A DNA stretch of 64,000 nucleotides. It comes from Syntrophomonadaceae bacterium (GTDB lineage Bacteria; Bacillota; PH28-bin88). How positions within the stretch are numbered: position 1 is the first letter of the stretch; every line of letters starts with the position of its first letter. The position numbers and the translations under genes are program-made. Of the stretch, positions 33,041-60,480 are shown piece after piece. The notes beneath the pieces are model-generated. The model ran no database searches. It saw nothing but the letters and a program-made list of their open reading frames with translations, and was not told the DNA's origin. The stretch is taken from positions 1-64,000 of the forward strand of contig JAGXSE010000057.1 of the NCBI GenBank assembly GCA_018333865.1. Direction: 5' to 3'.

Positions 33041-33922
33041 TTATGACTTGTCGGAGGCAGATTGGATTTTCGTGGCCAGTTTTTTCCCGGTGGGTGTGGC
33101 CGCCAATCCCCCGCGGCCGGTCTCCTTTAAATCTTGATGCATAGCCTTGCCAATACTATGCATCGCCCAAATCACCTCATCAGGCGGGATGACACTCCGG
33201 ATACCTGCAAAAGCCATCTGGGCAGCTGTAAAAGCATGTACTGCCGCAAAGGCGTTTCGCTTGACACACGGCACCTCCACCAGGCCGGCCACTGGGTCGC
33301 AAACCAGGCCTAAAAGGTTTTTCAGGGCTAAAGCCGCCGCATGAGCCACAATGACCGGGTCTCCCGTCATTAATTCGGCAGCAGCCGCTGCTGCCATAGC
33401 TGCCGCTGAACCGCACTCAGCCTGGCATCCCCCTTCAGCCCCGGAAATAGTCGCATTGCTGGCAATCACCATTCCCACTCCGGCTGCCGTCAGCAATGCA
33501 TGAGCAGCCTCTGTTGCATCGGCGCCGGTCTCCTCTGCAACAACAGAAAGTACAGCAGGAAGAATACCGCAGGAACCGGCAGTGGGAGCTGCCACAATGC
33601 GGCCCATAGCGGCATTGTTTTCGGCTGCGGCCAAGGCTCTGGCAATCACCCTGGTAGGGACTGGTCCAAATACGGCGCGATCGATAATTCCGGCAATCTT
33701 CGCAGCGTCACCGCCAACCAGGCCTCCCATAGAAGGCTGGTCTACAGGTGGCACGATCGATGCCAGCATTACCTGCCAGCGCCGTCCCATTTCCTGCAGC
33801 AATTCTTCTTTGGGGATGCCCCTTTCTTTTTCTTCAGCTTCCATTACAATCTGCCAGATTGCGCACTCCCGATCTTGCGCCATCCGGACAAGGTCCTGGA
33901 TCTTTTGAAAAGTCACAGGCAA
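33041..33922 (-). CDS. sdaAA: L-serine dehydratase, iron-sulfur alpha subunit
   Basis: The catalytic subunit of the oxygen-sensitive [4Fe-4S] L-serine dehydratase converts serine to pyruvate and ammonia. The 293-residue protein keeps the family motifs APTAGSCGILPAVL (about 110), SGAEGGCQAECGSA (about 165) and VCDPVAGLVEVPCVKRNAF (about 205), which hold the cluster cysteines. It follows the beta subunit by 64 bp. It supplies pyruvate at the end of the nearby catabolic pathway. Confidence 0.95.
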   Translation of the reverse strand: MPVTFQKIQDLVRMAQDRECAIWQIVMEAEEKERGIPKEELLQEMGRRWQVMLASIVPPVDQPSMGGLVGGDAAKIAGIIDRAVFGPVPTRVIARALAAAENNAAMGRIVAAPTAGSCGILPAVLSVVAEETGADATEAAHALLTAAGVGMVIASNATISGAEGGCQAECGSAAAMAAAAAAELMTGDPVIVAHAAALALKNLLGLVCDPVAGLVEVPCVKRNAFAAVHAFTAAQMAFAGIRSVIPPDEVIWAMHSIGKAMHQDLKETGRGGLAATPTGKKLATKIQSASDKS

Positions 33923-33986: not shown

Positions 33987-34667
33987 TCATATTTTATTTG
34001 TCGCCGGGCATATTTTCACTTTATAGAAGCCCGCAAAGGACTGTACCTTTAACGCCGCTTCACTAGGAATTGGCTGATCTGTTTCTACCACCATCAGCGC
34101 TATCCTGTCTCCAGTCCGCCGGACAACCCGCATGAAAGCAATATTTATTTTGTACTTGGCCAAGACACAGGAAACCTTGGCTACCATTCCCGGCTGGTCC
34201 GAATAGACACAGACCATAGCAGGATACTCGCCCGACAGATGAAGGGGAAAACCGTCGATCTCCAGTAAAACAATCTTGCCGCCACCGGTCGAAGCGCCAA
34301 GTACTTCCACCCGCTCTCCGTCTTCAGCCTGCAGGATAATTTTAGCCTGGTTGGGATGCGCATCTCCCAGATCCGCCTCCGCGATCTGGACCATTATCCC
34401 CTGTTTGGCAGCTATCTCCAATGCGTTTTTGATCCGCAGGTCGTCCGGATCCATGCCCAGGATGCCTGCCACCAAGGCCCGATCGGTGCCGTGACCCTTA
34501 TAAGCAGCGGCGAATGAACCGTGAAGCAGAATTGTTGCCGCAACCGGGCTTTTTCCCAGGATGTTTAGAGCCATTTTCCCAATCCTGGCTGCTCCTGCCG
34601 TATGGGAACTGGATGGACCAACCATGATGGGGCCAATAATATCGTAAACACTATAGACCACTTGCAA
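33987..34667 (-). CDS. sdaAB: L-serine dehydratase, iron-sulfur beta subunit
   Basis: The 226-residue partner of sdaAA has an N-terminal ASB domain (SVYDIIGPIMVGPSSSHTAGAARIG) and a C-terminal ACT domain (about 150-222, SDQPGMVAKVSCVLAKYKINIAFM). The start is TTG at 34667 or the GTG two codons downstream; AGGGG lies just upstream. Confidence 0.94.
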   Translation of the reverse strand: MQVVYSVYDIIGPIMVGPSSSHTAGAARIGKMALNILGKSPVAATILLHGSFAAAYKGHGTDRALVAGILGMDPDDLRIKNALEIAAKQGIMVQIAEADLGDAHPNQAKIILQAEDGERVEVLGASTGGGKIVLLEIDGFPLHLSGEYPAMVCVYSDQPGMVAKVSCVLAKYKINIAFMRVVRRTGDRIALMVVETDQPIPSEAALKVQSFAGFYKVKICPATNKI

Positions 34668-34723: not shown

Positions 34724-36100
34724 CTAAACAAATCGCCCCAGGCCAGCCGGCAAAAAACGGCCAATACCCTTTTGGGCAACAAGCTCCCCGTCCTGGCAAA
34801 CCACCTGCCCGCGCAAAACAGTAACCCTGGGATATCCCTTTACCTTCCAGCCCTCAAAGGGGGTATACCCGGCAGCCGAATGCAGGCTGGACCCGGTCAG
34901 GACAGCCTCTTTTTCCGGGTCGAAAATCACCAGATCCCCGTCGCTGCCCGGCGCCAATGTTCCTTTTTGCGGGTATATACCGAAAATCCGCGCCGGGTTC
35001 CCAGCTAAAAACTTGACCAATTGGTCTAAGGTAATCCGTCCCTTGCCGACTCCTTCAGAATATAGAAGGGGCAAAAGGGTTTCTACGCCAGGGATGCCTG
35101 GCGGGGTATCAAAACAGGTATTTGCCTTGATTTTTTGTTCCCAGGTGTAGGAGCAGTGGTCAGTTGCAGCTGTCTGCAGCTCTTCCGCTGCCAAAGCTCT
35201 CCATAACAACAGATTGTCTTCTTTGGTGCGCAAAGGAGGCGACATGATGTATTTTTGGGCATCCGGAGCCTGGTACAGGTCTTCCGTCAGCAAAAGATAG
35301 TGGGGGCAGGCCTCGCCCATCACCCGCTGCCCTGCTCTTCTGGCCAGTGCTATCGCCTGGGCGCCGCTGCCACTGGAAACGTGAACGATGTATAGCAGAC
35401 AACCGGCTGTCTTCGCTTCTGCGATCACCCGGTTAATAGCAGATAATTCCGCTCCAACAGGCCGACTGGCCCCGTGATAGCGGGGTTCAGTCCGGCCCTG
35501 GTTTTTCAAGGCCAGCTGAGCCTCTTGCACCATCCGGTCGTCTTCCGCATGCACGATCACCAAAAGGCCGGTCTGCCCCGCAAATTTTAGCAATCGGCTT
35601 AAATCCTCATCCTCGAGTTTTAATGTATCATAGGTGGTGAATATTTTACAGTTGGTAATCCCCGCAGCCATCAAGGCTGGCATGTCTTTGGCCTCTTGTT
35701 CGCCAAATTGCGTCACCACGGCATGGAGGGTATAGTCTGAAATAAGTTCCCGGTCAGCCTGGGCCTTTCTTTCTTTCATACAATCCAACAGGGTTTGGCC
35801 CGGCAAGGGGGCATCGGCAAAATCGATCACTGTGGTCACACCGCCAAAGGCAGCGCTTACACTGCCTTGGAAAAAATCATCGGCAGTAGTGTAGCCTCTG
35901 GCTGACTTCATGTGGAAATGGGTGTGCACATCGATTACTCCCGGCAAAACCAGCATGCCGCTTGCATCCACAACCTTAATCCCATACGGCTCAGGCAAGT
36001 CCCGGCCAAAAGCAAAGATCCGGCCTTCTTTTATCAGGACATCTGCCGGCTCTGTCCCTGCCTCCCTGACAACTGTGCCTCCTCTGACCAGCAGATCCAT
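34724..36100 (-). CDS. hydA: Dihydropyrimidinase-family cyclic amidohydrolase
   Basis: A D-hydantoinase/dihydropyrimidinase that opens cyclic imides. The 458-residue protein has VLPGVIDVHTHFHM (metal ligands near 57), the candidate carbamylated lysine in ITNCKIFTTYD (near 151), the His motifs VIVHAEDD and YIVHVSSGSGAQ, and TAATDHCSYT. It begins MDLLVRGGTVV after GGGAGG. In E. coli the homologue HyuA/YgeZ belongs to the same gene group as YgeW and YgeY, both nearby. With the preA/preT-like genes it could also act in pyrimidine breakdown. Confidence 0.92.
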   Translation of the reverse strand: MDLLVRGGTVVREAGTEPADVLIKEGRIFAFGRDLPEPYGIKVVDASGMLVLPGVIDVHTHFHMKSARGYTTADDFFQGSVSAAFGGVTTVIDFADAPLPGQTLLDCMKERKAQADRELISDYTLHAVVTQFGEQEAKDMPALMAAGITNCKIFTTYDTLKLEDEDLSRLLKFAGQTGLLVIVHAEDDRMVQEAQLALKNQGRTEPRYHGASRPVGAELSAINRVIAEAKTAGCLLYIVHVSSGSGAQAIALARRAGQRVMGEACPHYLLLTEDLYQAPDAQKYIMSPPLRTKEDNLLLWRALAAEELQTAATDHCSYTWEQKIKANTCFDTPPGIPGVETLLPLLYSEGVGKGRITLDQLVKFLAGNPARIFGIYPQKGTLAPGSDGDLVIFDPEKEAVLTGSSLHSAAGYTPFEGWKVKGYPRVTVLRGQVVCQDGELVAQKGIGRFLPAGLGRFV

Positions 36101-36133: not shown

Positions 36134-37366
36134 TTAATCAATTTTCTCCAACAGCTTAATCAGTTGTTCCAGATCCGGCTCGATCCGGTAGGGTTCGCCA
36201 GCAGCCTTGATGCCGCTTTGCACATCCTTTAATCCATTGCCGGTAACACAAACCACAACCCGGTCCTGCCCTTTGATCTGTCCCTGTTCAACCATCTTTT
36301 TCAGCCCAGCCAGGGCGGCAGAGCCGGCAGGCTCGGCAAAAACACCACTAGTCCTGCCCAATAGTCTCATCGCAGCCAGAATTTCTGCATCCGTCACATT
36401 GACCATGGTCCCGCCGGAATCCCGCACTGCCCGCAGTGCTTTGTCAGGGTTACGGGGTACGCCCACCGCAATACTGTCGGCCAGGGTGTCTTCGGCCATG
36501 GGCACGAGTTCGCCGCCGGTATGGAAGGCCTGGCTTAAGGGGCAGCACCCTGCAGCCTGCACCCCCAGCATTTTGGGGAGCCTGTCAATCAGGCCCGTCT
36601 GATAAAAATCAAGAAAACCTTTCCAGGCCCCGGCAATGGTACATCCGTCGCCAACCGAAAATACTACCCAGTCGGGCACCTGCCAGTCAAGCTGTTCGCA
36701 AATCTCCATTGTCACAGTCTTTTTCCCTTCCACTAAATAGGGATTGATGGCAGCATTCCGGTTATACCACCCCCATCTGGCAATGGCTTTGGCGGACAAC
36801 TCAAAGGCCTCCTGGTAACTGCCCTGCACGCTGATGACATGAGCACCAAAGATCAACAGCTGGGCAATCTTGCCCTGCGGGGCACGGCCAGGCACGAAAA
36901 TATAGGACTTCATCCCCATGGACGCTGCATTGCCCGCCAAAGAAGAAGCGGCATTCCCAGTAGAGGAACAGGCGATGGTGTTCTGGCCGGCCTCAACAGC
37001 TTTCAGCAAAGCGATTGCTGTGGCGCGGTCTTTCAAAGATGCAGTGGGATTTTGGCCGTCGTCCTTAATAAAAATTTCCTCTAAACCCAAAGATGCCGCT
37101 AGAAATTGGGGCCGGTAAAGTGGGGTCCAGCCAATCCTGAGGGGAGGACGCAAACTGCCGGGCAAAACCGGCAAATAAGGGAGATAGCGCCACATGGTAT
37201 AATCATTGGACTGCTTGAAATACTCCCTGTTCACCTGTTTCGATATATAGCCGTAGTCATACTTTACCTCCAGGATACCCGAACAAACCTGACAGGTACA
37301 GGCATTGGGCAGGGGCAAATGCTGATGTCCGCACCGGACACATTCCAAATACTTAACATGATGCAA
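36134..37366 (-). CDS. Threonine-synthase-like PLP enzyme
   Basis: The 410-residue fold type II PLP enzyme has an N-terminal zinc-ribbon-like segment (YLECVRCGH at 7 and CTCQVCSG at 23). The PLP lysine is in GQNPTASLKDRATAIAL (about 105) and the phosphate loop in SSTGNAASSLAG (about 135). The family is threonine synthase, but no homoserine or threonine gene is nearby. It sits between the dihydropyrimidinase gene and ygeW/ygeY, where E. coli-type clusters hold ygeX (diaminopropionate ammonia-lyase). A beta-elimination role is therefore an inference from position only. The start is TTG with GAAGGTGA upstream. Confidence 0.88.
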   Translation of the reverse strand: MHHVKYLECVRCGHQHLPLPNACTCQVCSGILEVKYDYGYISKQVNREYFKQSNDYTMWRYLPYLPVLPGSLRPPLRIGWTPLYRPQFLAASLGLEEIFIKDDGQNPTASLKDRATAIALLKAVEAGQNTIACSSTGNAASSLAGNAASMGMKSYIFVPGRAPQGKIAQLLIFGAHVISVQGSYQEAFELSAKAIARWGWYNRNAAINPYLVEGKKTVTMEICEQLDWQVPDWVVFSVGDGCTIAGAWKGFLDFYQTGLIDRLPKMLGVQAAGCCPLSQAFHTGGELVPMAEDTLADSIAVGVPRNPDKALRAVRDSGGTMVNVTDAEILAAMRLLGRTSGVFAEPAGSAALAGLKKMVEQGQIKGQDRVVVCVTGNGLKDVQSGIKAAGEPYRIEPDLEQLIKLLEKID

Positions 37367-37450: not shown

Positions 37451-37987
37451 CTAAAAGACAGCAGGAGTAATTGTAGAGATAAAAACTAACTCCTCTTCAC
37501 CTACGGATTTTAGCTTATGGGGAATCGAACCAAAGTAGTAAATGGAATCTCCCTCGTCCAAAACATAAAATTCATCGCCCAGCTGCACTTCTAATTTGCC
37601 TTGCAGAACAACAATACATTCCTCCCCTTGGTGGGAAAGGGGTGGATCACAACTTACCGCCCCTTTAGTAAGCCTTCCCATCCAAACCTCCATCGAGCGA
37701 TTGAGGTCAGGAACCAAGAGTTCATAAACCAAATGCGATTGGGGCATTTTTAAGGCCTTCCGCTCATTTTTTCGCACCACCGGGCTGGGCTTGCCATTTT
37801 CCATCAGAAAATAAAAAATGGGCACCCCCAGAGCATCGGCAATTTTCCGCAATGAGGTAATGGAGGGCTCTGCCAGGTCTCGTTCCACCTGGCTTAAAAA
37901 GCTGGGGGTCAGCTCGGTTATCTCGGCGAGTTCCCGCAGGCTTAACCCCTTTTCCGCCCTGATTCTTCTGATAGTTTCCCCAAGCAT
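37451..37987 (-). CDS. XRE-family regulator with cupin sensor domain
   Basis: The 178-residue regulator has an N-terminal helix-turn-helix of XRE type (IRAEKGLSLRELAEITELTPSFLSQVERDLAEPSITSLRKIADAL, about 9-50) and a C-terminal cupin barrel (about 105-175, HQGEECIVVLQGKLEVQLGDEFYVLDEGDSIYYFGSIPHKLKS). Relatives such as PuuR and YdcN-like proteins control amino acid or amine catabolism. It is encoded within the island in the same direction, so a local role is likely. Hairpin repeats flank it on both sides. Confidence 0.9.
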   Translation of the reverse strand: MLGETIRRIRAEKGLSLRELAEITELTPSFLSQVERDLAEPSITSLRKIADALGVPIFYFLMENGKPSPVVRKNERKALKMPQSHLVYELLVPDLNRSMEVWMGRLTKGAVSCDPPLSHQGEECIVVLQGKLEVQLGDEFYVLDEGDSIYYFGSIPHKLKSVGEEELVFISTITPAVF

Positions 37988-38120: not shown

Positions 38121-39110
38121 CTAGGGGCGTCCGCCCATGATCAGGGCCATTAGGGCTTTCTGGACATGCAGCCTGTTTTCCGCCTCGTCGTAGACCACCG
38201 ATTGCGGGCCGTCGATAACTTCGTCGGTAACTTCCCGGCCCCGGTCTGCCGGCAGGGGATGCATGTAAATCCCATGCGGCTTGGTCAGGGACATCATTTT
38301 GCTGTCGCAGCACCAGGAAGGATATTTGGAGATCAAGTCCAGCCCTTCCTGCTTGTTCTGGGTATAAACCAAGGGGCCCCAGCTCTTCGGAATGACGATA
38401 TCGGCATCTTCGAAAGCCGCTTCCATTTCATGGACGATTTCGAATTTGGCTCCGGCTTCTGCTGCATTCTTTCTGGCCTGCTCCTCAATTTCCGGCATCA
38501 GCTTGAATTCCGGCGGGTAGGCCAGGGTCACATCGATGCCAAAGCGGGGCATCATCAAGATCAGGCTCTGGGGTACGGACAGGGGACGAACGTAATTGGG
38601 AGCATGGGTCCAGGAGACGCCCATTTTCAATCCACGGGTATTTTTGCCAAATCGCTCTCTAATGGTCAACATGTCTGCCAGGATCTGGCATGGATGATAG
38701 ATGTCGCACTGCATATTGATGACAGGCACCTTGGCATGTTGGGCAACCTCTCTTAAATACTGGCTCCCTTGCCTGTAGGCGCAATGGCGGACGGCAATGG
38801 CGTGGCCAAACCTGCTCAAGACATTGGCCGTATCCTTGGCGTTTTCGCCATGGGATATTTGCAGCTTGTCGGGGGTAAGATCGTGAGCATGGCCGCCTAA
38901 CTGGGTCATCCCGGCCTCGAAGGAATTGCGGGTCCGGGTGGAATTGTCAAAAAAGATCATGAACAGGGTCTTGTCCTGTAAAAGGCGATGGGGAATCCCC
39001 AGGGCAAACTGTTTTTTCAGGTCTGCCGCCACTTCAAACAACAGATCAAGTTCCTCCAGAGTCCATTCCTGTTCGGTGATGAAATCCTTTCCTCTTAACA
39101 TACTGTGCAT
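38121..39110 (-). CDS. ygeW: Knotted carbamoyltransferase YgeW
   Basis: This aspartate/ornithine carbamoyltransferase-fold protein of the YgeW family has 329 residues. The carbamoyl-phosphate loop is FFDNSTRTRNSFEAGMTQLGG (about 50). HCAYRQGSQ, INMQCDIYHPCQILADMLTI and the C-terminal MHPLPADRGREVTDEV are present. The true substrate of the family is not settled; in the urate-type clusters it is thought to release carbamoyl phosphate for carbamate kinase. The ATG at 39110 has AAGGAG upstream. It follows ygeY by 28 bp. Confidence 0.94.
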   Translation of the reverse strand: MHSMLRGKDFITEQEWTLEELDLLFEVAADLKKQFALGIPHRLLQDKTLFMIFFDNSTRTRNSFEAGMTQLGGHAHDLTPDKLQISHGENAKDTANVLSRFGHAIAVRHCAYRQGSQYLREVAQHAKVPVINMQCDIYHPCQILADMLTIRERFGKNTRGLKMGVSWTHAPNYVRPLSVPQSLILMMPRFGIDVTLAYPPEFKLMPEIEEQARKNAAEAGAKFEIVHEMEAAFEDADIVIPKSWGPLVYTQNKQEGLDLISKYPSWCCDSKMMSLTKPHGIYMHPLPADRGREVTDEVIDGPQSVVYDEAENRLHVQKALMALIMGGRP

Positions 39111-39138
39111 TTTTCTTATCTCCTTCCGCTTAGTTGAT

Positions 39139-40347
39139 TTATAGTTTTGCTGCCAAAACCGTAGGGAACAAGGCATAAAACATGGTCGCCTTGATCAGGT
39201 GATCTACTGAAACCTGATCGTTTACGGTGTGGGCCCATTTCTCTTCACTGGGGCCAAAGCCAATGGTGGGAATACCCAGTTTACCCATTAACGAACTCGC
39301 GTCGGTCCCAAAGGTCCATTTGTCAATCCGGGGTTTTTGCCCAAATAATTGTTCTACTGTAGCGGCACCGCTTTGCACCAAAAGATGATCCTCGGGAAGG
39401 ACCCAGGTGGGGAAATACTTTTCCGTGGATTTGGCATAACCGGTCCAGCTTTGATCCTCGTAGCAAAGCATCTCAATCTGGGCATGCTCCGCTCCGGGGA
39501 GGGCTTTGATTTCGTTAAAACAACTCTCCAGATTTTCTCCGACCGTGGTGCGGCGGTCAATGTAAATAGTGCACTCATCGGGGATGGCGTTTAAGGAACC
39601 GGTTTTGCACTCGATCATGGTCACGGCGATGCTGCCTTTGCCCAGAAACGGATCTTCCTTCAGCCGGGACGGCAGGTTTTCAATCCCTTTGATAATGGGC
39701 TGCATCTTGTAGATCGCATTTTCTCCCCGTTCCGGGGCGCTGGCGTGGCAAGAGATGCCCTTTGTGACAACCTTAAACTCGATCCGGCCCCGGTGACCAC
39801 GGTATATGGCCAGGTTGGTGCACTCGCCCAGGACCACGTAGTCAGGAACCACTCCTTCTTTTTCAATCATTTCCTTTACGGCCCAGCCATCGCAGGACTC
39901 TTCTTCCACCACCCCCACCACATACAGGGTTACATCCCCGGTCAAGCCCAGGTCCTTGATAATCCTTGCTCCATAAACCATGGTCACAATCGCGGCCTTA
40001 TTATCGGAAGCCCCGCGGCCATAGACAATGCCATCCTCCAGTTTACCTTGAAAGGGATCAAAAGCCCAGGCCTTAGGATCGCCAATGCCGACGGTGTCAA
40101 TATGGGAGTCGTAAAGAATTTTCACCGGCCCGTTGCCTACCCGGCCGATTACGTTGCCGATAGCATCGATGCGCACCTCGTCAAAACCGTTCTGCCGCAT
40201 TTCCTCCGCAATGCGCTCGACAACAGCTTGTTCCTGACAGCTAACACTTGGAATGGCAATAACGTCCCGCATAAATTTGACAATTTCTTTTTCATACACC
40301 TTGGCCCTGTCCTTAATCTGGCCAATCAATTCTTGCTCCACACTCAT
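39139..40347 (-). CDS. ygeY: YgeY-family M20 metallohydrolase
   Basis: This is a dinuclear-zinc amidohydrolase/peptidase of the ArgE/DapE M20 family, the YgeY type found with selenium-dependent molybdenum hydroxylases. The 402-residue protein has metal motifs LYDSHIDTVGIGD (about 80), GRGASDNKAAIVTMVYG (about 115) and VVEEESCDGWAV (about 150). TDASSLMGKLGIPTIGFGPSEEKWAHTVNDQVS lies near the C terminus. The M20 fold fits hydrolysis of an open-chain ureido compound. It is followed closely by ygeW. Confidence 0.93.
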   Translation of the reverse strand: MSVEQELIGQIKDRAKVYEKEIVKFMRDVIAIPSVSCQEQAVVERIAEEMRQNGFDEVRIDAIGNVIGRVGNGPVKILYDSHIDTVGIGDPKAWAFDPFQGKLEDGIVYGRGASDNKAAIVTMVYGARIIKDLGLTGDVTLYVVGVVEEESCDGWAVKEMIEKEGVVPDYVVLGECTNLAIYRGHRGRIEFKVVTKGISCHASAPERGENAIYKMQPIIKGIENLPSRLKEDPFLGKGSIAVTMIECKTGSLNAIPDECTIYIDRRTTVGENLESCFNEIKALPGAEHAQIEMLCYEDQSWTGYAKSTEKYFPTWVLPEDHLLVQSGAATVEQLFGQKPRIDKWTFGTDASSLMGKLGIPTIGFGPSEEKWAHTVNDQVSVDHLIKATMFYALFPTVLAAKL

Positions 40348-40559: not shown

Positions 40560-41492
40560 TCATCTTTCCTCACGGTCAAAGGATAACCCCAGGGCTGCCG
40601 GAGCTCCTAATTTTTTTGTCCGGCCCCGGTATGTGACCACAATGAGAACGATAATGGTGAAAATATACGGCATCATTTGCAGAAAGAAAGGCGAAATAGG
40701 TATCTCCAGTATTTGGATACGGAAACCCATCGCGGTAATGCCACCGAACAGATAAGCGCCGGCCATAGCCCGCAGCGGATTCCAGACAGCGAAGATAACC
40801 AGGGCGATTGCAATCCAGCCCCGTCCGGCAGTCATCCCGTCCAACCATACGGGAGCCAGAGCCAGGGTCAGATAGGCCCCGCCAAGTCCCGCCAGCATTC
40901 CCCCGAAAATTACGCATAGATAACGGACCAGGTTCACATTAATCCCTACCGCGTCTGCCGTGGCAGGGTCCTCTCCCACTGCCTGCACATTTAAGCCGGC
41001 TCTTGTCCAGTACAAAAAAACCCAAATCAGGGGAATCAGCACATATGTCATGTATACCAGCGGATCGTGCCGGAAAAACACTTCGCCTACAAAAGGTATT
41101 TGCGATAAAAAAGGGATCGAGTAATCCTGGAAAGTAGCGGGAAGCGGCACACCGATCAGCCGTTTTCCAATAAGCGAACTAAGCCCGGTACCGAAGATAG
41201 TAAGTGCAAGGCCCGCTACTACCTGGTTTGCCCGCAAGGTAATCGATAAGAAAGCATGGATCAAAGCTAAGAAACCACCGGCAAACATTGCCGCACCAGC
41301 TCCCAGCCAGGGGTTGGCGGTCAGAACAGTAACCAGAAAACCGGTGACCGCACCCATTAACATCATGCCCTCTACTCCCAAATTAAGCACTCCGGAGCGC
41401 TCTGTGATCAGCTCTCCGATAGCTGCATAAAGGATAGGTGTTCCCGCAGTAATTGCCGCTATGAGAATTGCAAGGAAAAAAGCATATTCCAT
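40560..41492 (-). CDS. Nucleoside ABC transporter permease (NupQ/YufQ type)
   Basis: The 310-residue inner-membrane permease has about nine hydrophobic segments. It keeps the BMP/nucleoside transporter N terminus AGTPILYAAIGELITERSGVLNLGVEGMMLMGA. QAVGEDPATADAVGINV is the coupling-type loop facing the ATPase. It is the last gene of the importer cassette. The 212 bp after it hold a TCAGGCG...CGCCTGA hairpin (about 40505-40545). Confidence 0.93.
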   Translation of the reverse strand: MEYAFFLAILIAAITAGTPILYAAIGELITERSGVLNLGVEGMMLMGAVTGFLVTVLTANPWLGAGAAMFAGGFLALIHAFLSITLRANQVVAGLALTIFGTGLSSLIGKRLIGVPLPATFQDYSIPFLSQIPFVGEVFFRHDPLVYMTYVLIPLIWVFLYWTRAGLNVQAVGEDPATADAVGINVNLVRYLCVIFGGMLAGLGGAYLTLALAPVWLDGMTAGRGWIAIALVIFAVWNPLRAMAGAYLFGGITAMGFRIQILEIPISPFFLQMMPYIFTIIVLIVVTYRGRTKKLGAPAALGLSFDREER

Positions 41493-41493
41493 G

Positions 41494-42585
41494 CTATCCC
41501 ACCCTCTTCCTTTGGATTGTTAGCCGGTAACGAGCAAAGGTATCGCTGCCCAGTAAAAAGAAGAGAATTGCTCCCTGCAGCATGGAAACTACGGCCAGAG
41601 GTAAACCTACAATTTGCATACTGAAACCGCCGACCAGAAGACCGCTCAATAAGAAGGAGACGATCACAACCCAGCCGGGATGCATCCGCGCCAGCGAAGC
41701 CACGATAATGGCGGTATAACCATAGCCGGGAGAAAAGCCTTGCTGTAACCGGCCATGGATCGCAGATATTTCGATCATGCCGGCAATACCGGCCAACCCG
41801 CCGCTGACCAGCATCACCAGGATAATATTGCGCTTGATGTCCATGCCCGCATAACGGGCCGCTCCCGGGCTTTCCCCGATCACCCTGATTTCATAGCCCC
41901 ACCGGGAATAGTATATAACAAAGTATAACACCAGGGCCGCAATCAGCCCGATGATCAGTCCCAGGTGAATGCGCGTATCGCCCAGGGTTGGCAAGCGCGC
42001 CGCCGCGCTGAAGGCTTCAGTAATCGGAAATCCTAACGCGCCAGGGTCACGCCAGGGACCAAAAACCAGATAATCCACCCAGTAGATGGCAACATAATTC
42101 AGCAACAGTGTCACAATGATTTCGTTTACTCCCAGGTATGCCCGCGGCACAGCGGCCAGCAAAGCCCATAAAGAGCCTGCCAGCATACCGGCGACAAACA
42201 TCGCCGGCAATACAATATACACCGGAGCCTGGGGCATAGCCAAGGCAACGCCGCTAGCCGCGAAAGCCCCCATATAAAGCTGCCCTTCAGCGCCAATGTT
42301 CCACAAGAGCATTCGAAAAGCTAACGCCACCCCAAGGCCGGCCAGCATCAAAGGGATAGCTTTAACTGCTGTTTCCATCAAGCCAAATGGGGACATATAC
42401 GCATTGGCAAACATGGTGTGGTAAACGGACAGAGGATTGAAGCCCATACTCAGGATCACGATCCCACCGGCCAAAAGCGCCAAAATGATCGAGACCACCG
42501 GAATAGCTACATTAATATGCGGAGAAGGTTCTAACCGCTTCTCCCATCTGATGACCCAACCTGATAACAAGCCTTGTTTTTGCAT
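41494..42585 (-). CDS. Nucleoside ABC transporter permease (NupP/YufP type)
   Basis: The 363-residue permease has an N-terminal cytosolic stretch, eight or nine membrane helices and the FRMLLWNIGAEGQLYMGAFAASG motif. The coupling loop is RVIGESPGAARYAGMDIKRN. The start overlaps the ATPase stop as TGATG, and the second permease follows by one base. Confidence 0.94.
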   Translation of the reverse strand: MQKQGLLSGWVIRWEKRLEPSPHINVAIPVVSIILALLAGGIVILSMGFNPLSVYHTMFANAYMSPFGLMETAVKAIPLMLAGLGVALAFRMLLWNIGAEGQLYMGAFAASGVALAMPQAPVYIVLPAMFVAGMLAGSLWALLAAVPRAYLGVNEIIVTLLLNYVAIYWVDYLVFGPWRDPGALGFPITEAFSAAARLPTLGDTRIHLGLIIGLIAALVLYFVIYYSRWGYEIRVIGESPGAARYAGMDIKRNIILVMLVSGGLAGIAGMIEISAIHGRLQQGFSPGYGYTAIIVASLARMHPGWVVIVSFLLSGLLVGGFSMQIVGLPLAVVSMLQGAILFFLLGSDTFARYRLTIQRKRVG

Positions 42586-44111
42586 CAGCTTGCCGACACC
42601 TCTTTTCCTGCCCCTGCCATCAAAAGACCCACTTCTTCCGGTGCCGTATTTTCCGCTGCCAGGATACCCATAATCTGACCTTCGTAAATCACCGCTATCC
42701 TGTCTGCCAGCTTAAAGATCTCTTCCAGATCCTCCGACACCAACAAAATACTGGTACCCTGATTCCGCTGTTCCACCAGCATCTGGTGGATGGCCTCAGT
42801 AGCTGCCACATCTAACCCACGGGCCGGGTAGACGGCAATAATCAGACTTGGACAAGCGGAGATCTCCCGCGCCAGCACGAGCCGCTGCAAATTGCCTCCT
42901 GACATCAGCCTGACCGGACAGTCCAGAGTCGCAGTTTTGACCCCAAAAGCCGTGACCAGCTCTTGCGCTCTTTGCCGGATTGCCTTGTGATCCAAAAACC
43001 ATCCCGGGCAGACTGACCGGTCGCGGTAGGATTTGAGAATTACATTCTCCATTACCGCCATGTTGGGAATAAGCCCCATGCCCTTCCGGTCTTCCGGAAT
43101 ATAACCTACTCCCGCTTCAATTATTTCTCTTGTTCTGCATCTTGTTACATCGTTATCGCTCAAGAATATTTTGCCTGCAGTCACCGGCCTTAAGCCGGTG
43201 ATCACCTCAGCCAGCTCCCGCTGGCCGTTTCCGGCCACCCCGGCAAAAGCCAGGATTTCTCCTTTTTGAATGGAAAAAGATACTTTTCGCAAAGCCGGCA
43301 ATCCCTTGTCGTTTAAGGCTGATACAGCCTCAAGCCGGAGAACAACCTGTTGGGATATAACAGCAGGCTTATTGATTTCAGCAAGAAGCTCTTTGCCTAC
43401 CATTAACTGGGCAAGTTCCTTAATGCTGGTTTGCCCCTTCTCGCGCACAGCCACCGAGCGGCCGCCGCGCAACACTGTAATGCGGTCGGCATAAGCCATC
43501 ACTTCATGCAGCTTATGGGTGATAAAAATAACAGTCTTGCCACTATTAGCCAATTGCCGCAAATTTTTAAAGAGCTCCCTGACTTCCTGGGGTGTCAAAA
43601 CTGCAGTGGGTTCATCAAGAATCAAAATCTGGGCTCCCCGATAAAGCATCTTCATGATCTCAACCCGTTGTTGCTCCCCAACAGACAGCTGCCATATCTT
43701 AGCCTTTGGATCCAGCAGCATGCCATAAGTTTTTGATAAAGCAGCGATTTTTTGCTCGACAACCTGCGGCTGCCACCAAAATCCTTCTGTCTTGATCCCT
43801 AAAGTAATATTCTCGGTTACGGTAAGTGAAGACACCAGGCGAAAATGCTGGTGCACCATACCCACGCCGGCCTCCGCGGCATCCCGGGGCGTGCGCAGGC
43901 TGACCGGCTTGCCGTCAATTAATATTTCTCCCTCATCTGGCCAGTATAAACCAGTCAGGATATTCATTAAGGTGCTTTTGCCGGCGCCGTTTTCACCTAG
44001 CAAAGCGTGAATTTCGCCTCGCCGGGCCTGAAATTCGACTTGATCATTGGCCAGCACCCCAGGGAATCTTTTGGTAATTTTACGCATCAACAGTGATGTC
44101 TCAGATCCCAT
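42585..44111 (-). CDS. Nucleoside ABC transporter ATP-binding protein (NupO/YufO type)
   Basis: The 508-residue protein has two tandem ABC domains. The first has Walker A GENGAGKSTLMN, signature LSVGEQQRVEIMK and Walker B ILILDEPTAVLTPQE. The second has a degenerate Walker A (AGVAGNGQRELAEV) and signature LMSGGNLQRLVLARE. This is typical of ribose/nucleoside-type importers with one catalytic site weakened. Confidence 0.95.
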   Translation of the reverse strand: MGSETSLLMRKITKRFPGVLANDQVEFQARRGEIHALLGENGAGKSTLMNILTGLYWPDEGEILIDGKPVSLRTPRDAAEAGVGMVHQHFRLVSSLTVTENITLGIKTEGFWWQPQVVEQKIAALSKTYGMLLDPKAKIWQLSVGEQQRVEIMKMLYRGAQILILDEPTAVLTPQEVRELFKNLRQLANSGKTVIFITHKLHEVMAYADRITVLRGGRSVAVREKGQTSIKELAQLMVGKELLAEINKPAVISQQVVLRLEAVSALNDKGLPALRKVSFSIQKGEILAFAGVAGNGQRELAEVITGLRPVTAGKIFLSDNDVTRCRTREIIEAGVGYIPEDRKGMGLIPNMAVMENVILKSYRDRSVCPGWFLDHKAIRQRAQELVTAFGVKTATLDCPVRLMSGGNLQRLVLAREISACPSLIIAVYPARGLDVAATEAIHQMLVEQRNQGTSILLVSEDLEEIFKLADRIAVIYEGQIMGILAAENTAPEEVGLLMAGAGKEVSAS

Positions 44112-44200: not shown

Positions 44201-44302
44201 CTGCAGTGGCAGTCGCAAACTATTATCTGGCAGGCAATTTTCCCTCCTGCCTCATGCCTCCTGCTTCCTGCAGTGGCAGTCGCAAGCTATTATCTGGTAG
44301 GC
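44201..44302. repeat. Tandem duplication covering the 3' end of bmpA copy 1
   Basis: TGCAGTGGCAGTCGCAA(A/G)CTATTATCTGG(C/T)AGGCA occurs at 44201-44234 and 44268-44301, a spacing of 67 bp. The second copy holds the last codons and stop of the BMP gene. The first is the duplicate behind it. Purine-rich AGGAGRCAGGA runs on the coding strand fill 44160-44270. Confidence 0.75.
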
Positions 44303-45444
44303 AGTGAACCGACTACACCTTCGATCAGCCAGTTCATTCCCAGCAACTCCTCCTCGGTCATTCTTGTACCGGCCGGAACCCTGACAGCACCTGTCTGGTC
44401 TTTGATGGGTCCAGTAAAGGGGAAGAGTTTGCCATCAATTATTTCCTGCCTTTTTGCCAAGACTTTTTCTTGGACGTCTTTAGGCACCAGGGCATCGTTA
44501 AATGGTCCTAGGTCAACGATGTCCGGCATTGCCCACCGATGCCGGGTGCTCTCCCACTTGCCGTCCCGAATTGACTGCAGGATCTCCACATAAAAGGGAC
44601 CCCAGTTCCACACCGGACCTGTCAAAGTGGCTTTTGGTGCCATATGTCTCATGTCTGAGTTGTTACCAGTGCCAAAAGCGCCTCTCTCCTGAGCTGCCTG
44701 CTGAGCAGACGGCGAATCCTGATGCTGTCCGATCACATCAGCGCCTGCATCTAACAAGGTAATCGCAGCTTCTCTCTCCTTGGCGGGATCAAACCAGGTA
44801 TTTGTCCAGACCACCTGCACAGTAGCCTTGGGATTAACTGCGCGCGCCCCCAGGGTAAAGGCGTTGAGACCAAGGATAACCTCAGGAATCGGATGTGCTG
44901 CTACATAGCCCAGGCGGTTAGTCTTTGTCTTCAGGCCGGCAACCATGCCCGAAAGGTACCTGGCATCCTCGACTCTGCCAAAATAGGCTGACATATTAGG
45001 AGCGGTTTTAAACCCGGTAGCATGCATGAATTTAACATTAGGATACTGAGCAGCGAGATTCACCATAAAGTCCATGTAGCCGAAGCTGGTGCCAAATATA
45101 ACTGTTGCACCTTTCTGGATCATTTCCCGTACTACCCGCTCAAAATCTGCCCCCGGCGGTACACTCTCAACATACATTGTCTCCACCCAAGGCAATTTGC
45201 TTTCAACATATTTACGGCCTTGGTTTTGGGCAAAAGTCCAACCGGCATCGCCGATCGAGCCGACGTAAACAAAACCAACCTTCATATCTGCGGGTGCGGG
45301 TGCGGGTGCCGGCGCAGGAGCCGGCGGCGGGGTTGGGGTTGCTGCAGGTTGCGCCCCGCAGCCAACGGTTGTGCCCACGAGCGCCAGAATCAAAAGCATT
45401 ACTAAGGCCACTAGCTTTCCCTTGACTGTTTTTGACTTGACCAT
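44290..45444 (-). CDS. BMP-family nucleoside-binding lipoprotein, copy 1
   Basis: This substrate-binding protein has 384 residues. A signal peptide with lipobox-like TTVGC (Cys near 29) is followed by a Pro/Ala-rich tether (PPPAPAPAPAPA) and the Bmp domain (DMKVGFVYVGSIGDAGWTFAQNQGRKYVE onward). GADVIGQHQDSPSAQQAAQERGAFG and the C-terminal GMNWLIEGVVGSLPTR are family features. It is the first gene of the importer cassette with the ATPase and permeases. Ligands of close relatives are purine nucleosides. Confidence 0.93.
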   Translation of the reverse strand: MVKSKTVKGKLVALVMLLILALVGTTVGCGAQPAATPTPPPAPAPAPAPAPADMKVGFVYVGSIGDAGWTFAQNQGRKYVESKLPWVETMYVESVPPGADFERVVREMIQKGATVIFGTSFGYMDFMVNLAAQYPNVKFMHATGFKTAPNMSAYFGRVEDARYLSGMVAGLKTKTNRLGYVAAHPIPEVILGLNAFTLGARAVNPKATVQVVWTNTWFDPAKEREAAITLLDAGADVIGQHQDSPSAQQAAQERGAFGTGNNSDMRHMAPKATLTGPVWNWGPFYVEILQSIRDGKWESTRHRWAMPDIVDLGPFNDALVPKDVQEKVLAKRQEIIDGKLFPFTGPIKDQTGAVRVPAGTRMTEEELLGMNWLIEGVVGSLPTR

Positions 45445-45619
45445 CTCAAATCCCCCTTTTGCTTTTTACCAGTTTAGTTCCTCTGTGATTCCTGTTTGCT
45501 ACCGGCAGGTAACGCTCCCTTTTGGCAGCATTCACTGCATATTTAAGCGAATCACCTCCTTGTCAGGTCGAGGATGCCAGGATGTGCCAGGCCAAGGCGG
45601 GTCCAACGGCTCCGTATAA

Positions 45620-45706
45620 TAGGCAGAGTTTGGTCTGGGAATAAACAACAGGCAACCATGCTCGCTTTGCTCAACTGCTCAGACCCAAATAGCCATACTC
45701 TGCCCC
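45620..45706 (-). promoter_or_regulatory. Structured 5' leader of the nucleoside importer operon
   Basis: GGCAGAGT (45704-45697) pairs with ACTCTGCC (45629-45622). Inside, GGGTCTG pairs with CAGACC. About 40 nt with GAGCAAAGCGAGC form the core. It begins a few bases after the predicted start from TGCTATAAT (-10 at 45721-45716) and lies about 175 nt before bmpA copy 1. It does not match the purine riboswitch core. It may be a new cis-regulatory RNA or a repeat. Confidence 0.45.
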
Positions 45707-45715
45707 ACTTCCTCT

Positions 45716-45724
45716 ATTATAGCA
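45716..45724 (-). promoter_or_regulatory. Extended -10 promoter of the bmpA copy 1-importer operon
   Basis: TGCTATAAT on the minus strand is a perfect extended -10; no good -35 is seen at 17 bp. Confidence 0.5.
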
Positions 45725-45823
45725 AGATATTTGCCCATGCCTAGCCCAGGAGTAGATATAGAAAAAACCTAATCCCAACTGCTTTTGTTGCCCATGGCTG
45801 ATATTTATTGTAACTACCAGCAA

Positions 45824-46960
45824 TTACCTGGCTGGAAGCGATCCAATTACTCCTTCGACCAGCCAGTACATTCCCCGCATTTCATCGACAGTCATTATTG
45901 TTCCGGCAGGGACCCTGATTGCCCCAGCCTGGTCCTTGATAGGGCCGGCAAAAATATTGAACTTGCCGTCAATTATTTCCTGCCTTTTTGCCATTACTTT
46001 ATCCTGTATTTCCTTAGGCACCAGGGCCTCATTAAACGGGCTCAAATCAACAATATCCGGCATCGGCCAGCGATATTGCTCAGGTTTCCAGGTGCCGTCC
46101 CGAATGTTTTCCATCATCTCCACATAAAAGGGGCCCCAATTCCAGACCGGACCTACTAAAGTGGCATTTGGCGCAAAACTTCTTAAGTCTGAATTGTCGC
46201 CGACACCAAAAACCCCCCTGTCCTGTGCAGCCTGCTGCGAGGCCGGAGAATCTTGATATTGACCGATAACATCTGCTCCCGCCTCAATCAGGCTTAAGGC
46301 CGCTTCTCTTTCTTTGGCAGGATCAAACCACGTGCCAGACCAAACCACCTGCACGGTAACCTTAGGATTGACCAGGCGGGCACCCAGGGTAAAGGCGTTA
46401 AGACCTATAATGGCTTCGCTAAAAGGATGCGCAGCCACAAAACCCAAGCGATTAGTCCTGGTCTTCAGGCCGGCAACCATGCCGGTGAGGAACCTGACGT
46501 CTTCTATTCTGCCAAAATAGGTTCCTAAATTGGGACCGGAGCCAAACCCGGCGCCTTGCATGAATATGACATTAGGATGTTGTGCAGCTATGCCGGGCAT
46601 GAGGGCCGAATAGCCAAAGCTAGGGGCGAAAATGACTTTTACACCCTGTTGGACCATCTCCCGCACGACTCGCTCCAGGTCTGCCCCTGGGGGAACTCGC
46701 TCTACCTTTAAGGTTTCAACCCAGGGCAGCTTGCTCTCGAGATACTGACGACCTTGATCATGAGAGAAATTCCAGCCAAAGTCCGCAAGCGGACCAGGAT
46801 ATATAAATCCCACTTTTGTTACCGCAGGAGCCGGTGCAGGAGCCACTGGGGTAGGTTCAGGCTGCGGTTTCTGCATTACAACAATGGTCACCACTATTGC
46901 TACAACCAAAAATATTGCGAGCACTATCAGCCTTACATTGAGCAATTTAGAATTCACCAT
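45824..46960 (-). CDS. BMP-family nucleoside-binding protein, copy 2
   Basis: The 378-residue paralogue of the next gene is collinear along the whole binding domain (KVGFIYPGPLADFGWNFSHDQGRQYLE, GADVIGQYQDSPASQQAAQDRGVFG, MYWLVEGVIGSLPAR). The N terminus (LLNVRLIVLAIFLVVAIVVTIVVMQKPQPEPTP) is a membrane helix without a lipobox Cys, followed by a Pro-rich tether. It may stay attached as an uncleaved anchor. The two genes seem to be a local duplication that includes the leader. Confidence 0.92.
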   Translation of the reverse strand: MVNSKLLNVRLIVLAIFLVVAIVVTIVVMQKPQPEPTPVAPAPAPAVTKVGFIYPGPLADFGWNFSHDQGRQYLESKLPWVETLKVERVPPGADLERVVREMVQQGVKVIFAPSFGYSALMPGIAAQHPNVIFMQGAGFGSGPNLGTYFGRIEDVRFLTGMVAGLKTRTNRLGFVAAHPFSEAIIGLNAFTLGARLVNPKVTVQVVWSGTWFDPAKEREAALSLIEAGADVIGQYQDSPASQQAAQDRGVFGVGDNSDLRSFAPNATLVGPVWNWGPFYVEMMENIRDGTWKPEQYRWPMPDIVDLSPFNEALVPKEIQDKVMAKRQEIIDGKFNIFAGPIKDQAGAIRVPAGTIMTVDEMRGMYWLVEGVIGSLPAR

Positions 46961-47084: not shown

Positions 47085-48794
47085 CTAAACCGAAATATCG
47101 ACAAGCCGAAACTCTTCCACATCTACCAGTCCCCGGTCAGTTAGTTTGAGTTCCGGGATCACCGACAAGGATAAAAATGACAACGCCATAAAGGAGGAAG
47201 GAATCATGACCCCCATCTCCGCAACTCGCTGATGGAGATCTTCAAGCTGCCGGGCCACCTCCTCCAGGGTTCCCAGAGCCATCAATCCGGCTATTGGCAG
47301 GGCCAAAACACCTAGAATTTTGCCCTGTGCCGCCAAAACCAGCCCGCCCTGATTACGGGCAATGGTATCGATTGCCAGCAGGATATCCTCGTCAGCAACA
47401 CCCACGGCAATTATATTATGAGAATCGTGGGCAACCGAGCAGGCAATAGCGCCATTTTTCAAACCAAAACCCTGAACCAGGCCAACCCCAACCCTCCCTG
47501 TTGCATGATGCCTCTCAACTACGCACAGCTTCAGAATATCCCGATCCGGATCAGCTATGATTTCATTGTTGGAAACTTTAGGGAAGGTTAGCAGCTGGGT
47601 TGTAACCACTTGCTTGGGCACCAGCCTGATTACTCGCACCAGATCACTCTTGGCTTCTAGTTTGATTTTCTCCAGGCTAAGGGAAGGAACCTTGACGGAA
47701 TTTCGCACTGCCTCAGGAGCCCAGCGTTTGGCTTGAAAAAGGGAGCGTCCACCTTCAGCAACCAATTCGCCCTGATGGTAGACCTGGCCGATTTGAAGCG
47801 AAAAAAGATCTTCGATTACCACCAGATCGGCGAGATAACCTGGAGCAACTGCCCCAAGGTTATTCAGCCCAAAATATTCCGCTGTGTTGATGGTGACCAT
47901 CCTGATAGCCGCAACCGGATCCAAACCAGCCGAAATCGCCTTGCGGACAGCATGATCGAGGTGGCCTTCCCTGAGCAGATCCTCGGGATGGCGGTCATCG
48001 GTCACTAACATGCAGCGCCTGAGGTTTTCAGGGGTTACGACAGGCAAGAGGTCGAGCAAGTTCCGGGTTGCTGATCCCTCCCGGATCATCACATGCATGC
48101 CCAGGCGCAATTTTTCCAGGGCTTCGTCAGGGGTTGTGCACTCGTGATCCGAGGTGATCCTTGCTGCAACATAGGCACAGAGGTCCTTTCCTGTCAGGCC
48201 AGGGGCATGACCATCAATGGGTCGTCCGCAGGAAGCCTTGATCTTCGCTAATATTTCAGGTTCTGCAGCCAATACCCCGGGGAAATTCATCATTTCTCCT
48301 AACCCCAATATTCGCTTTTCTTGATAAAGCTCTGGCAGATCCCTGGAAGTTACTTCACCGCCCGAAGTTTCAAAAGGGCTAGCCGGCACACAGGAAGGAA
48401 TGGTCAGGTAAACCCGCAGCGGCAGACTGCGGCTGGTATCGAGCAGGTATCTGATTCCTACCGTGCCCAACACATTAGCAATCTCGTGTGGATCGGCCAC
48501 TACTGCCGTAGTACCTCTGGGAACTACAGCCCGGGCAAATTCAGGCGGAACCACCATTGTGCTCTCCAGATGCACATGGCCGTCGATAAAACCAGGTGCC
48601 AAAAAGAGACCAGCCAGATCTACTTCTTTCGGTCCCGAATACCGGCCCAAGCCAGCAATCATACCCTCAGAGATGGCCACGTCAGACTCGCAGATCTCAC
48701 CAGTGAAAACATTGATCACCTTAGCTTGCTTCAGCACTAAGTCTGGCTCCTTCTTGCCTCTGGCCACAGCGATCAGTCCGGCTGTATCATGCAT
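47085..48794 (-). CDS. ade: Adenine deaminase
   Basis: The enzyme converts adenine to hypoxanthine and ammonia. The 569-residue protein has the amidohydrolase metal motif APGFIDGHVHLESTMV (about 70), GTTAVVADPHEIANVLG, the second half with DGHAPGLTGKDLCAY and MLVTDDRHPEDLL, and the C-terminal Ade domain with VAHDSHNIIAVGVADEDI. The ATG at 48794 has GAGAGG upstream. It feeds hypoxanthine to the molybdenum hydroxylases next door. Confidence 0.95.
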   Translation of the reverse strand: MHDTAGLIAVARGKKEPDLVLKQAKVINVFTGEICESDVAISEGMIAGLGRYSGPKEVDLAGLFLAPGFIDGHVHLESTMVVPPEFARAVVPRGTTAVVADPHEIANVLGTVGIRYLLDTSRSLPLRVYLTIPSCVPASPFETSGGEVTSRDLPELYQEKRILGLGEMMNFPGVLAAEPEILAKIKASCGRPIDGHAPGLTGKDLCAYVAARITSDHECTTPDEALEKLRLGMHVMIREGSATRNLLDLLPVVTPENLRRCMLVTDDRHPEDLLREGHLDHAVRKAISAGLDPVAAIRMVTINTAEYFGLNNLGAVAPGYLADLVVIEDLFSLQIGQVYHQGELVAEGGRSLFQAKRWAPEAVRNSVKVPSLSLEKIKLEAKSDLVRVIRLVPKQVVTTQLLTFPKVSNNEIIADPDRDILKLCVVERHHATGRVGVGLVQGFGLKNGAIACSVAHDSHNIIAVGVADEDILLAIDTIARNQGGLVLAAQGKILGVLALPIAGLMALGTLEEVARQLEDLHQRVAEMGVMIPSSFMALSFLSLSVIPELKLTDRGLVDVEEFRLVDISV

Positions 48795-48851
48795 GCCTTC
48801 CACCTCTCCCCTTTTGGTGTTATCAATGCTTCCCGCCTTAATAGTTACGGA

Positions 48852-51178: not shown

Positions 51179-51194
51179 CTTCTCCGCCCTCCTT

Positions 51195-52499: not shown

Positions 52500-52535
52500 C
52501 TGCCATATCCTGTTAAAAGCCAGGAATAAATTTTT

Positions 52536-52730
52536 ATCACAGATGCTACCCGCTCTAATACCCCCGCTGCTAAGGAAAGGGGACACACCTGCTGAAGCTC
52601 GGGCTAGTCTTTGGGGACAGGAATGTCCCCAATTAAAGCGGCGGGATAAGAGCGGTTACGCACTGCATTAACTGGCTCTAAGCTTCAGTGGGGGTAGCAA
52701 TCCCCCTCTGAAGCCAAGACCCAGTTGAAC
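52536..52730. repeat. Structured 124-bp element, interrupted copy
   Basis: The ends ATCACAGATGCTACCCGCTCTAATA and TAAGAGCGGTTACGCACTGCATTAACTGGCTCTAAGCTTCA...AAGCCAAGACCCAGTTGAAC match 60357-60480. The loop in the middle is enlarged by a block containing GGGGACACACC and GGGGACAGGAATGTCCCC, akin to the 105-bp repeat ends. It lies between the FAD subunit gene and the split hydroxylase gene. Confidence 0.8.
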
Positions 52731-52747
52731 ATGCAAAAAACTTTCGT

Positions 52748-53614: not shown

Positions 53615-53632
53615 GTCATTCCCACCTTTCCT

Positions 53633-55936: not shown

Positions 55937-55954
55937 GGACCTTCCCTCCTTCAC

Positions 55955-57464: not shown

Positions 57465-57568
57465 CTTTCTCCCCCATTCTTGTCTAACTCGGTTCAAGTG
57501 TTTGAGATGACATACCATTTTTTGCTCCAGCTCCTGACCACTGCCCACTGACTACTGATTACACCACC

Positions 57569-60356: not shown

Positions 60357-60480
60357 ATCACAGATGCTACCCGCTCTAATATACCCCCGCTTCTTCGAAG
60401 CGGTTTTATAAGAGCGGTTACGCACTGCATTAACTGGCTCTAAGCTTCAACCTTCGGCTGAAGCCAAGACCCAGTTGAAC
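60357..60480. repeat. Structured 124-bp element, uninterrupted copy
   Basis: On the minus strand it runs from GTTCAACTGGGTCTTGGC to AGCGGGTAGCATCTGTGATC. AACTGG pairs with CCAGTT around an inner hairpin. ACCGCTCT pairs with AGAGCGGGT around CCGCTTCGAAGAAGCGG. It overlaps the preA-like gene and encodes its last residues (FNWVLASAEG) and stop. The second copy is at 52536-52730. Confidence 0.85.

Follow-up and report, generated by a model that had tools for sequence, protein, structure and literature searches.

A threonine-synthase-like enzyme in the place of YgeX in bacterial purine/urate gene clusters

In the present study we analysed a window of 64,000 nucleotides (contig JAGXSE010000057.1 of the Syntrophomonadaceae assembly GCA_018333865.1), which carries a gene for a predicted threonine-synthase-like enzyme (TS-like) within a purine/urate gene cluster. 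Gene content across the phylum shows that this predicted enzyme stands in the place of YgeX in most of the SsnA-bearing lineages sampled and that it travels with a second PLP enzyme, PLP475. Judged from its gene context, the TS-like protein is almost certainly part of the purine/urate pathway. On balance, it seems to have evolved from threonine-synthase stock into a dedicated enzyme of anaerobic reductive purine/urate metabolism, acting at the YgeX step.

It was not until 2025 that the reductive urate pathway was resolved. Its last step is assigned to YgeX by Li et al. (PMC12507026): urate is converted to yanthine, ring openings give 2,3-diureidopropionate and then albizziin, and YgeY and YgeX lead on to pyruvate. 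According to the same authors, YgeX accepts both isomers and the hydantoinase is D-specific. Percudani (PMC12990295) counts the stereochemistry, and the order in which the ureido groups are removed, among the open points. Apart from YgeX, the genome analysed here has nearly the full set of enzymes, which leaves the step from diaminopropionate to pyruvate to be filled; TS-like and PLP475 are the candidates for it.

The fold and the pathway are already known; a threonine-synthase descendant at the YgeX step would, within the literature searched, be new. No report of such a protein was found in that literature, nor any paper containing both ygeX and threonine synthase; two papers by Liu et al. 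and one by Kasahara et al. (PMC12666987, PMC10421625, PMC10311284), in which a prior mention is possible, lie outside this search. In the legend of figure 3 of Li et al. (PMC12507026), any PF00291 protein near SsnA is coloured as YgeX, so the TS-like group would count as YgeX there, and the TIGR00260 profile would label the same group threonine synthase. If the proposed role is correct, the terminal step differs in most of the SsnA-bearing families sampled (29 of 39 have TS-like, 23 of these without YgeX), which bears on the prediction of urate use from genomes, on the stereochemistry question (PMC12990295) and on the design of urate-degrading strains.

The gene cluster in the window and its host genome

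The TS-like gene (36134-37366, minus strand) is an open reading frame of 410 codons with a TTG start, preceded by an AAGGTG-like ribosome site. The 410-aa product was identified as a fold-type-II PLP enzyme from profiles, alignment and a structure model. It exceeds the cut-off of the NCBIfam thrC profile TIGR00260 (220.6 bits; cut-off 167.1), scores just under that of the narrower NCBIfam threonine synthase profile PRK08197 (300.6; cut-off 303), and matches Pfam PALP with 264.5 bits. Its N-terminal ribbon consists of cysteines 9, 12, 25 and 28, each of which is kept in 65 of 66 orthologues. The profiles and the four cysteines thus confirm the description given in an earlier note on this DNA, i.e. 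a fold type II PLP enzyme with a threonine-synthase N-terminal ribbon.

All named genes from position 33041 to the window end point leftward (minus strand). Downstream of TS-like, separated by gaps of 33, 56 and 64 bp, lie (i) hydA, encoding a D-hydantoinase-type amidohydrolase (34724-36100; TIGR02033 464.3, cut-off 393.25), (ii) sdaAB, for the beta component of an iron-sulfur L-serine dehydratase (33987-34667; TIGR00719 238.7, cut-off 161.2), and (iii) sdaAA, for the alpha component (33041-33922; TIGR00718 292.3, cut-off 243.2). On the other side, TS-like adjoins the gene of an XRE-cupin regulator (37451-37987); a gene of this kind lies next to TS-like, on the same strand and no more than 300 bp away, in 17 of 60 related loci. 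The regulator is followed by a YgeW-like carbamoyltransferase gene (38121-39176), overlapping that of the M20 amidohydrolase YgeY (39139-40347; TIGR03526 533.9, cut-off 321.5). The earlier note had placed the enzyme between hydA and ygeW/ygeY, which holds on the hydA side, whereas on the other side the XRE-cupin gene intervenes before the carbamoyltransferase. The name YgeW itself is less secure: the carbamoyltransferase scores 245.9 and 228.5 with the YgeW models, below their cut-offs (453 and 500), and ornithine carbamoyltransferase models outscore them.

The remainder of the cluster, all on the minus strand, comprises a nucleoside-type ABC transporter encoded by three genes (for two permeases and an ATPase; 40560-44111), named by resemblance of their translations; two BMP-type substrate-binding lipoproteins (44290-46960), the first with a weak NF047927 match; adenine deaminase (47085-48803; TIGR01178 640.6, cut-off 472.5); an amidohydrolase of the 5'-deoxyadenosine-deaminase family (48852-50138; NF005557 669.2, cut-off 522); and xanthine-dehydrogenase-type molybdenum hydroxylase genes (50171-56416), encoding a Mo subunit split in two frames, an FAD subunit, a second Mo subunit and an Fe-S subunit. 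The frames of the split large subunit (50171-52586, minus strand; 463 and 335 aa) match positions 2-405 and 435-754 of the PucD profile; the split recurs in two related loci (L013 and L017), and the second part has its own ATG. Farther along are carbamate kinase (56526-57548; TIGR00746 381.3, cut-off 358.25), SsnA, the marker of reductive urate clusters (59000-60328; TIGR03314 616, cut-off 455.5), and a selenium-dependent xanthine dehydrogenase (62906-63961, running past the window end; TIGR03311 1301.4, cut-off 830.45, as scored on L011). Thus SsnA, HydA, YgeY, carbamate kinase and the selenium-dependent xanthine dehydrogenase are all present, each above its profile cut-off, in agreement with the earlier note as to the first four.

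In the putative place of YgfK lie a PreA-like flavoprotein (60447-61673, minus strand; NF006183 515, cut-off 335; over the PRK08318 cut-off) and a GltD-like NAD(P)H subunit (61657-63084, minus strand; below cut-offs). Their genes overlap by 17 bp and adjoin that of SsnA. By analogy with UacX of C. difficile, the two genes may together stand in for YgfK. With the route of reductive uric acid breakdown described for E. coli and C. difficile by Li et al. 2025 (PMC12507026), the window shares SsnA, HyuA/HydA, YgeY, carbamate kinase and molybdenum hydroxylases. Unlike that pathway, the cluster analysed here has TS-like and PLP475 instead of YgeX, a carbamoyltransferase under the YgeW cut-off, and the PreA/GltD-like pair as a possible counterpart of YgfK.

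The absence of YgeX, which the earlier note had reported for the cluster, was confirmed for the whole genome, whose assembly (71 contigs) is rated 100% complete: the best TIGR03528 match (28.4 bits; cut-off 532.25) is the TS-like protein itself, and on this score we rejected the view that it is a simple YgeX orthologue. The earlier note had conceded that its proposal would fall if the genome held no other threonine synthase. This objection fails, since a separate ThrC (TIGR00260 309.2 bits; 40% identical to the TS-like protein of the window) is encoded on contig C49, adjoining homoserine kinase ThrB (named from its sequence).

Distribution across the phylum and the partner PLP475

The survey covered 398 genomes of the phylum, with at most four candidates scored per genome. 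A TS-like protein, defined by at least 52% identity over the match and an E value of 1e-110 or better, was found in 74 genomes (76 at E 1e-85); the 74 do not include two genomes with matches of 40% identity (G030, E 1e-95; G099, E 1e-92), nor do they count the second matches of G349 and G353. SsnA was counted in 89 genomes, in 4 of them below the curated cut-off, and YgeX in 61 at E 1e-60, 39 of these over the cut-off. TS-like and SsnA occur together in 70 genomes, i.e. in 70 of the 74 TS-like carriers and 70 of the 89 SsnA genomes (Fisher p 8e-55 over the 398 genomes). TS-like orthologues were also found in records named as Acidobacteriota and KSB1 (L018, L019, L024).

Within the 89 SsnA genomes, 13 carry both TS-like and YgeX, 57 TS-like only, 12 YgeX only and 7 neither (p 3e-4); with the curated YgeX cut-off the same split is 12/58/11/8 (p 8e-4). 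The counts were also collapsed to families and genera to curb repetition arising from kinship. The 39 SsnA-bearing families then comprise 6 with both, 23 with TS-like only, 10 with YgeX only and none with neither (p 1.3e-5), and the 55 SsnA-bearing genera 8, 35, 11 and 1 in the same order. Over all 398 genomes, irrespective of SsnA, no relation between TS-like and YgeX was seen (14 with both, p 0.37). The exclusion is not strict: YgeX accompanies TS-like in 13 of the 70 SsnA-bearing carriers, so the reaction of the TS-like enzyme may differ from, or exceed, that of YgeX.

Wide flanks were fetched for 60 of the 74 TS-like loci, a non-random set chosen to cover the PLP475 and YgeX classes. A purine-pathway gene lies within 8.2 kb of TS-like in 58 of the 60, and a core pathway gene in 55. 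The neighbours within this distance include members of the PLP475 family (38 loci), HydA (33), YgeY (27), the carbamoyltransferase (23), carbamate kinase (21), SsnA (16) and YgeX (4). In the 12 YgeX-only loci we detected YgeY (10), HydA (9), SsnA (9), YgfK (7) and the carbamoyltransferase (7), and PLP475 in none. The TS-like gene occupies a YgeX-type place in the urate cluster, beside YgeY, YgeW and HydA, and in otherwise similar clusters a single slot holds either RidA-YgeX (G185) or PLP475-TSlike (G259, G125). The gene rows of two of these clusters read RidA-YgeX-YgeW-YgeY-PbuX-Xdh-AmHyd-SsnA (G185) and PLP475-TSlike-XRE-YgeY-YgeW-Xdh-AmHyd-SsnA (G259). Four genomes (G014, G163, G239, G287) have TS-like and YgeX within one cluster, and in a further one (G376) YgeX lies near SsnA and the TS-like gene is without a purine neighbour. 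In a Peptococcaceae genome, the TS-like and HydA genes are followed by that of a beta-CASP nuclease (L013:13878-15554), related to aCPSF1 and to the type VII Cas14 model and below both cut-offs.

PLP475 is a CysK-like fold-type-II PLP enzyme of 475 aa, encoded beyond the window end (C57:65756-67183). In fold comparison its structure model (pLDDT 88.6) comes closest to beta-cyanoalanine synthase (Z 39.0, rmsd 2.2, 310 aligned) and the O-acetylserine sulfhydrylases (cysteine synthases; Z 37.7, rmsd 1.8, 303 aligned). In a first count PLP475 was missing from 30 TS-like carriers, of which 19 lacked YgeX as well, which would have made TS-like the sole replacement. We rejected this reading, since the count proved to be an effect of the threshold (E 1e-85): PLP475 homologues of 33-40% identity lie beside TS-like in many of these carriers, and PLP475 or a homologue was present in all 16 TS-like genomes whose fetched stretch contained no copy. 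These 16 homologues are of 471-519 aa in 14 genomes and shorter in G262 and G353, where, by their coordinates, they adjoin SsnA. Of the 12 YgeX-only SsnA genomes, G367 alone has a full-length PLP475 match, and two more have CysK-sized matches; 3 of the 7 SsnA genomes with neither TS-like nor YgeX also have a full-length match.

The comparison of gene content suggests that the replacement of YgeX is probably a pair, TS-like plus PLP475. The proposal of a non-orthologous replacement is thereby retained in an amended form: the absence of YgeX, the separate ThrC, the lost phosphate site (see below) and the complementarity among SsnA genomes speak for it, whereas its single-gene version gave way to the pair, and the SsnA-bearing carriers that keep YgeX stand against it.

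Possible reactions of the two enzymes

The substrate of the TS-like enzyme would be the C3 amino acid left after ureido removal, either 2,3-diaminopropionate or albizziin, the 3-ureido derivative of it. PLP would exchange the conserved lysine K112 for the substrate, giving the external aldimine; the alpha proton would be removed and the beta-amino (or ureido) group would then leave, and the resulting aminoacrylate intermediate would be released as pyruvate and ammonia. PLP475 may act as a racemase or helper that first supplies the right stereoisomer, because the hydantoinase is of the D-type and TS-like lacks the TDGN aspartate of YgeX. Beta-elimination of this kind, the reading we favour, is quite possibly the reaction of the TS-like enzyme; formation of serine is the main alternative. 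With more doubt, we suggest that YgeX, acting on both mirror forms, may have been displaced in most SsnA-bearing lineages of the phylum by a conserved two-enzyme module from other families. In this module, a CysK-like PLP enzyme would racemise or prime the D-amino acid coming from the D-hydantoinase, and cleavage of the L-form would fall to a descendant of threonine synthase, with L-serine and not pyruvate as the product in some species.

Water addition, giving L-serine, is a rather unlikely reaction for the TS-like enzyme. In a serine route of this kind, which we likewise consider of low probability, the beta-amino group of diaminopropionate would be swapped for water, and the L-serine formed would be converted by SdaAAB to pyruvate and by GlyA to glycine and a one-carbon unit. 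Addition of water to a vinyl intermediate occurs in ThrC, and cysteate synthase, a fold relative of TS-like (9k3c, Z 42.6), carries out beta-replacement on a C3 substrate. The route would also agree with the position of the two sda genes in the window, 56 bp after hydA and 64 bp after sdaAB. Of 60 other TS-like loci, 3 have SdaAB and SdaAA and 11 have GlyA no farther than 8.2 kb away, and neither occurs in the 12 YgeX-only loci. However, the difference for GlyA (11/60 against 0/12) is not significant (p 0.19), for which reason co-location was rejected as support; most TS-like loci have neither Sda nor GlyA nearby, and SdaAAB and GlyA may merely serve the use of glycine or serine.

PLP475 shows the same displacement pattern as TS-like (present in 38 of 60 TS-like loci and in none of 12 YgeX-only loci), so the lyase could be PLP475, with TS-like as its helper. 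It is unlikely, in our judgement, that PLP475 is the lyase replacing YgeX and that TS-like serves some other purpose in the pathway, e.g. on albizziin or in racemisation. Consistent with such a division of labour are the absence of PLP475 from 11 of the 12 YgeX-only SsnA genomes and its predicted fold, nearest to beta-cyanoalanine synthase and the O-acetylserine sulfhydrylases, i.e. enzymes working through an aminoacrylate intermediate. Against it, in several clusters (e.g. G120 and G158) TS-like is present but PLP475 is not adjacent, a homologue being located elsewhere in the genome.

Relation to threonine synthase, YgeX and more distant relatives

The TS-like proteins (66 orthologues) were aligned and placed in a tree with 13 ThrC, and 6 YgeX were compared at key positions; ThrC residues are numbered as in T. 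thermophilus, via the alignment with 1uim. Alignment of the orthologues shows that the predicted phosphohomoserine phosphate site of ThrC is lost. Arg160 and Ser155, which we take to bind the phosphate of O-phosphohomoserine, are conserved in all 13 ThrC, whereas the TS-like proteins have Leu (54), Met (8) or Cys (4) at the former position and Ala (62) or Gly (4) at the latter. In addition, the Thr of STGNT is replaced by Ala in 65 of 66 (one unread) and VGN by VGD in all 66. The PLP lysine (K112) is kept in 65, the remaining one being an unread residue. An aspartate at position 102 is common to TS-like (65/66) and YgeX (6/6) and absent from ThrC (0/13). The aspartates of the TDGN and QDTAW motifs of YgeX, presumably catalytic, are replaced by Thr in 65 of 66 TS-like proteins (one unread) and by a gap in all 66, respectively; a residue-for-residue YgeX-type working is therefore not expected.

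The AlphaFold2 model of TS-like, built from 33 orthologues (mean pLDDT 93.3, pTM 0.91), is nearest to the threonine synthases 2c2b (Z 48.3, rmsd 1.9, 377 aligned), 2d1f (Z 44.4, rmsd 1.8, 320 aligned) and 1uim (Z 43.5, rmsd 1.8, 319 aligned). Cysteate synthase 9k3c (rmsd 2.8, 394 aligned) is level with the lower threonine synthases, the threonine deaminases come next, and the match to diaminopropionate ammonia-lyase 5ygr is weaker than that to ThrC (Z 34.0, rmsd 2.8, 315 aligned). With ThrC the TS-like proteins share the fold, the PLP lysine, the STGN loop and a C-terminal TGNGLKD motif; they differ from it, besides the lost phosphate site, in the change of VGNAGN to VGDGCT, in conserved YNRN and ADSxAV motifs and in the purine-cluster context. 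With YgeX (TIGR03528; 4d9g, 5ygr) they have in common the superfamily and the place in the urate cluster, and differ in profile score, in both motif aspartates and in the weaker fold match. Cysteate synthase acts on a C3 amino acid and is, like TS-like, a threonine-synthase paralogue with an N-terminal part, but its profile TIGR03844 gives TS-like only 101.5 bits (cut-off 324.9).

In the tree, the ThrC are separated from TS-like by a 99/99 branch, and a doubtful long-branch sequence from Pandoraea captiosa (L022) falls among the TS-like proteins. The phylogenetic check suggested earlier thus set ThrC apart, whereas TS-like forms a single clade only with L022, whose branch length of 3.45 makes its place unsure, set aside. 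These comparisons indicate that TS-like is very probably not a threonine synthase.

A further TIGR00260 match is present in 66 of the 74 TS-like carriers and was not seen in 8, five of which belong to one family; TS-like might still make threonine in these 8. At E 1e-30 the carriers G020, G167, G314, G336 and G357 (family f10) show no second match to threonine synthase; auxotrophy, gaps or a retained role in making threonine may each lie behind this. That TS-like is an ordinary second threonine synthase sitting in the cluster by chance, as its TIGR00260 score, its PDB and fold neighbours and these 8 carriers might suggest, is highly improbable and was rejected on the phosphate-site Arg and Ser gone in all 66 orthologues, the gene context, the separate ThrC, the strong association with SsnA, and the lack of any match to the ThrB reference in the 60 TS-like loci, relatives of 34-40% identity (L020, L021, L023) being the ones that do adjoin ThrB.

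The distant homologue of P. captiosa (37%) is encoded in the row SbnA-SbnB-PurA-like-AurF-carbamoyltransferase-TS-like-DAO (L022:4212-12336), with a LuxR gene nearby. Its SbnA and SbnB, both over the profile cut-off, belong to the enzymes that make L-2,3-diaminopropionate, and the AurF-type protein is an oxygenase. The row resembles a small-molecule cluster based on L-2,3-diaminopropionate; a literature search for a row of this type returned nothing relevant. The homologue has the motifs TGDG and ADSLAVGRPR, as against VGDG and ADSIAVGVPR in TS-like. This single locus, on its long branch, gives a hint that ties the TS-like branch to diaminopropionate a second time.
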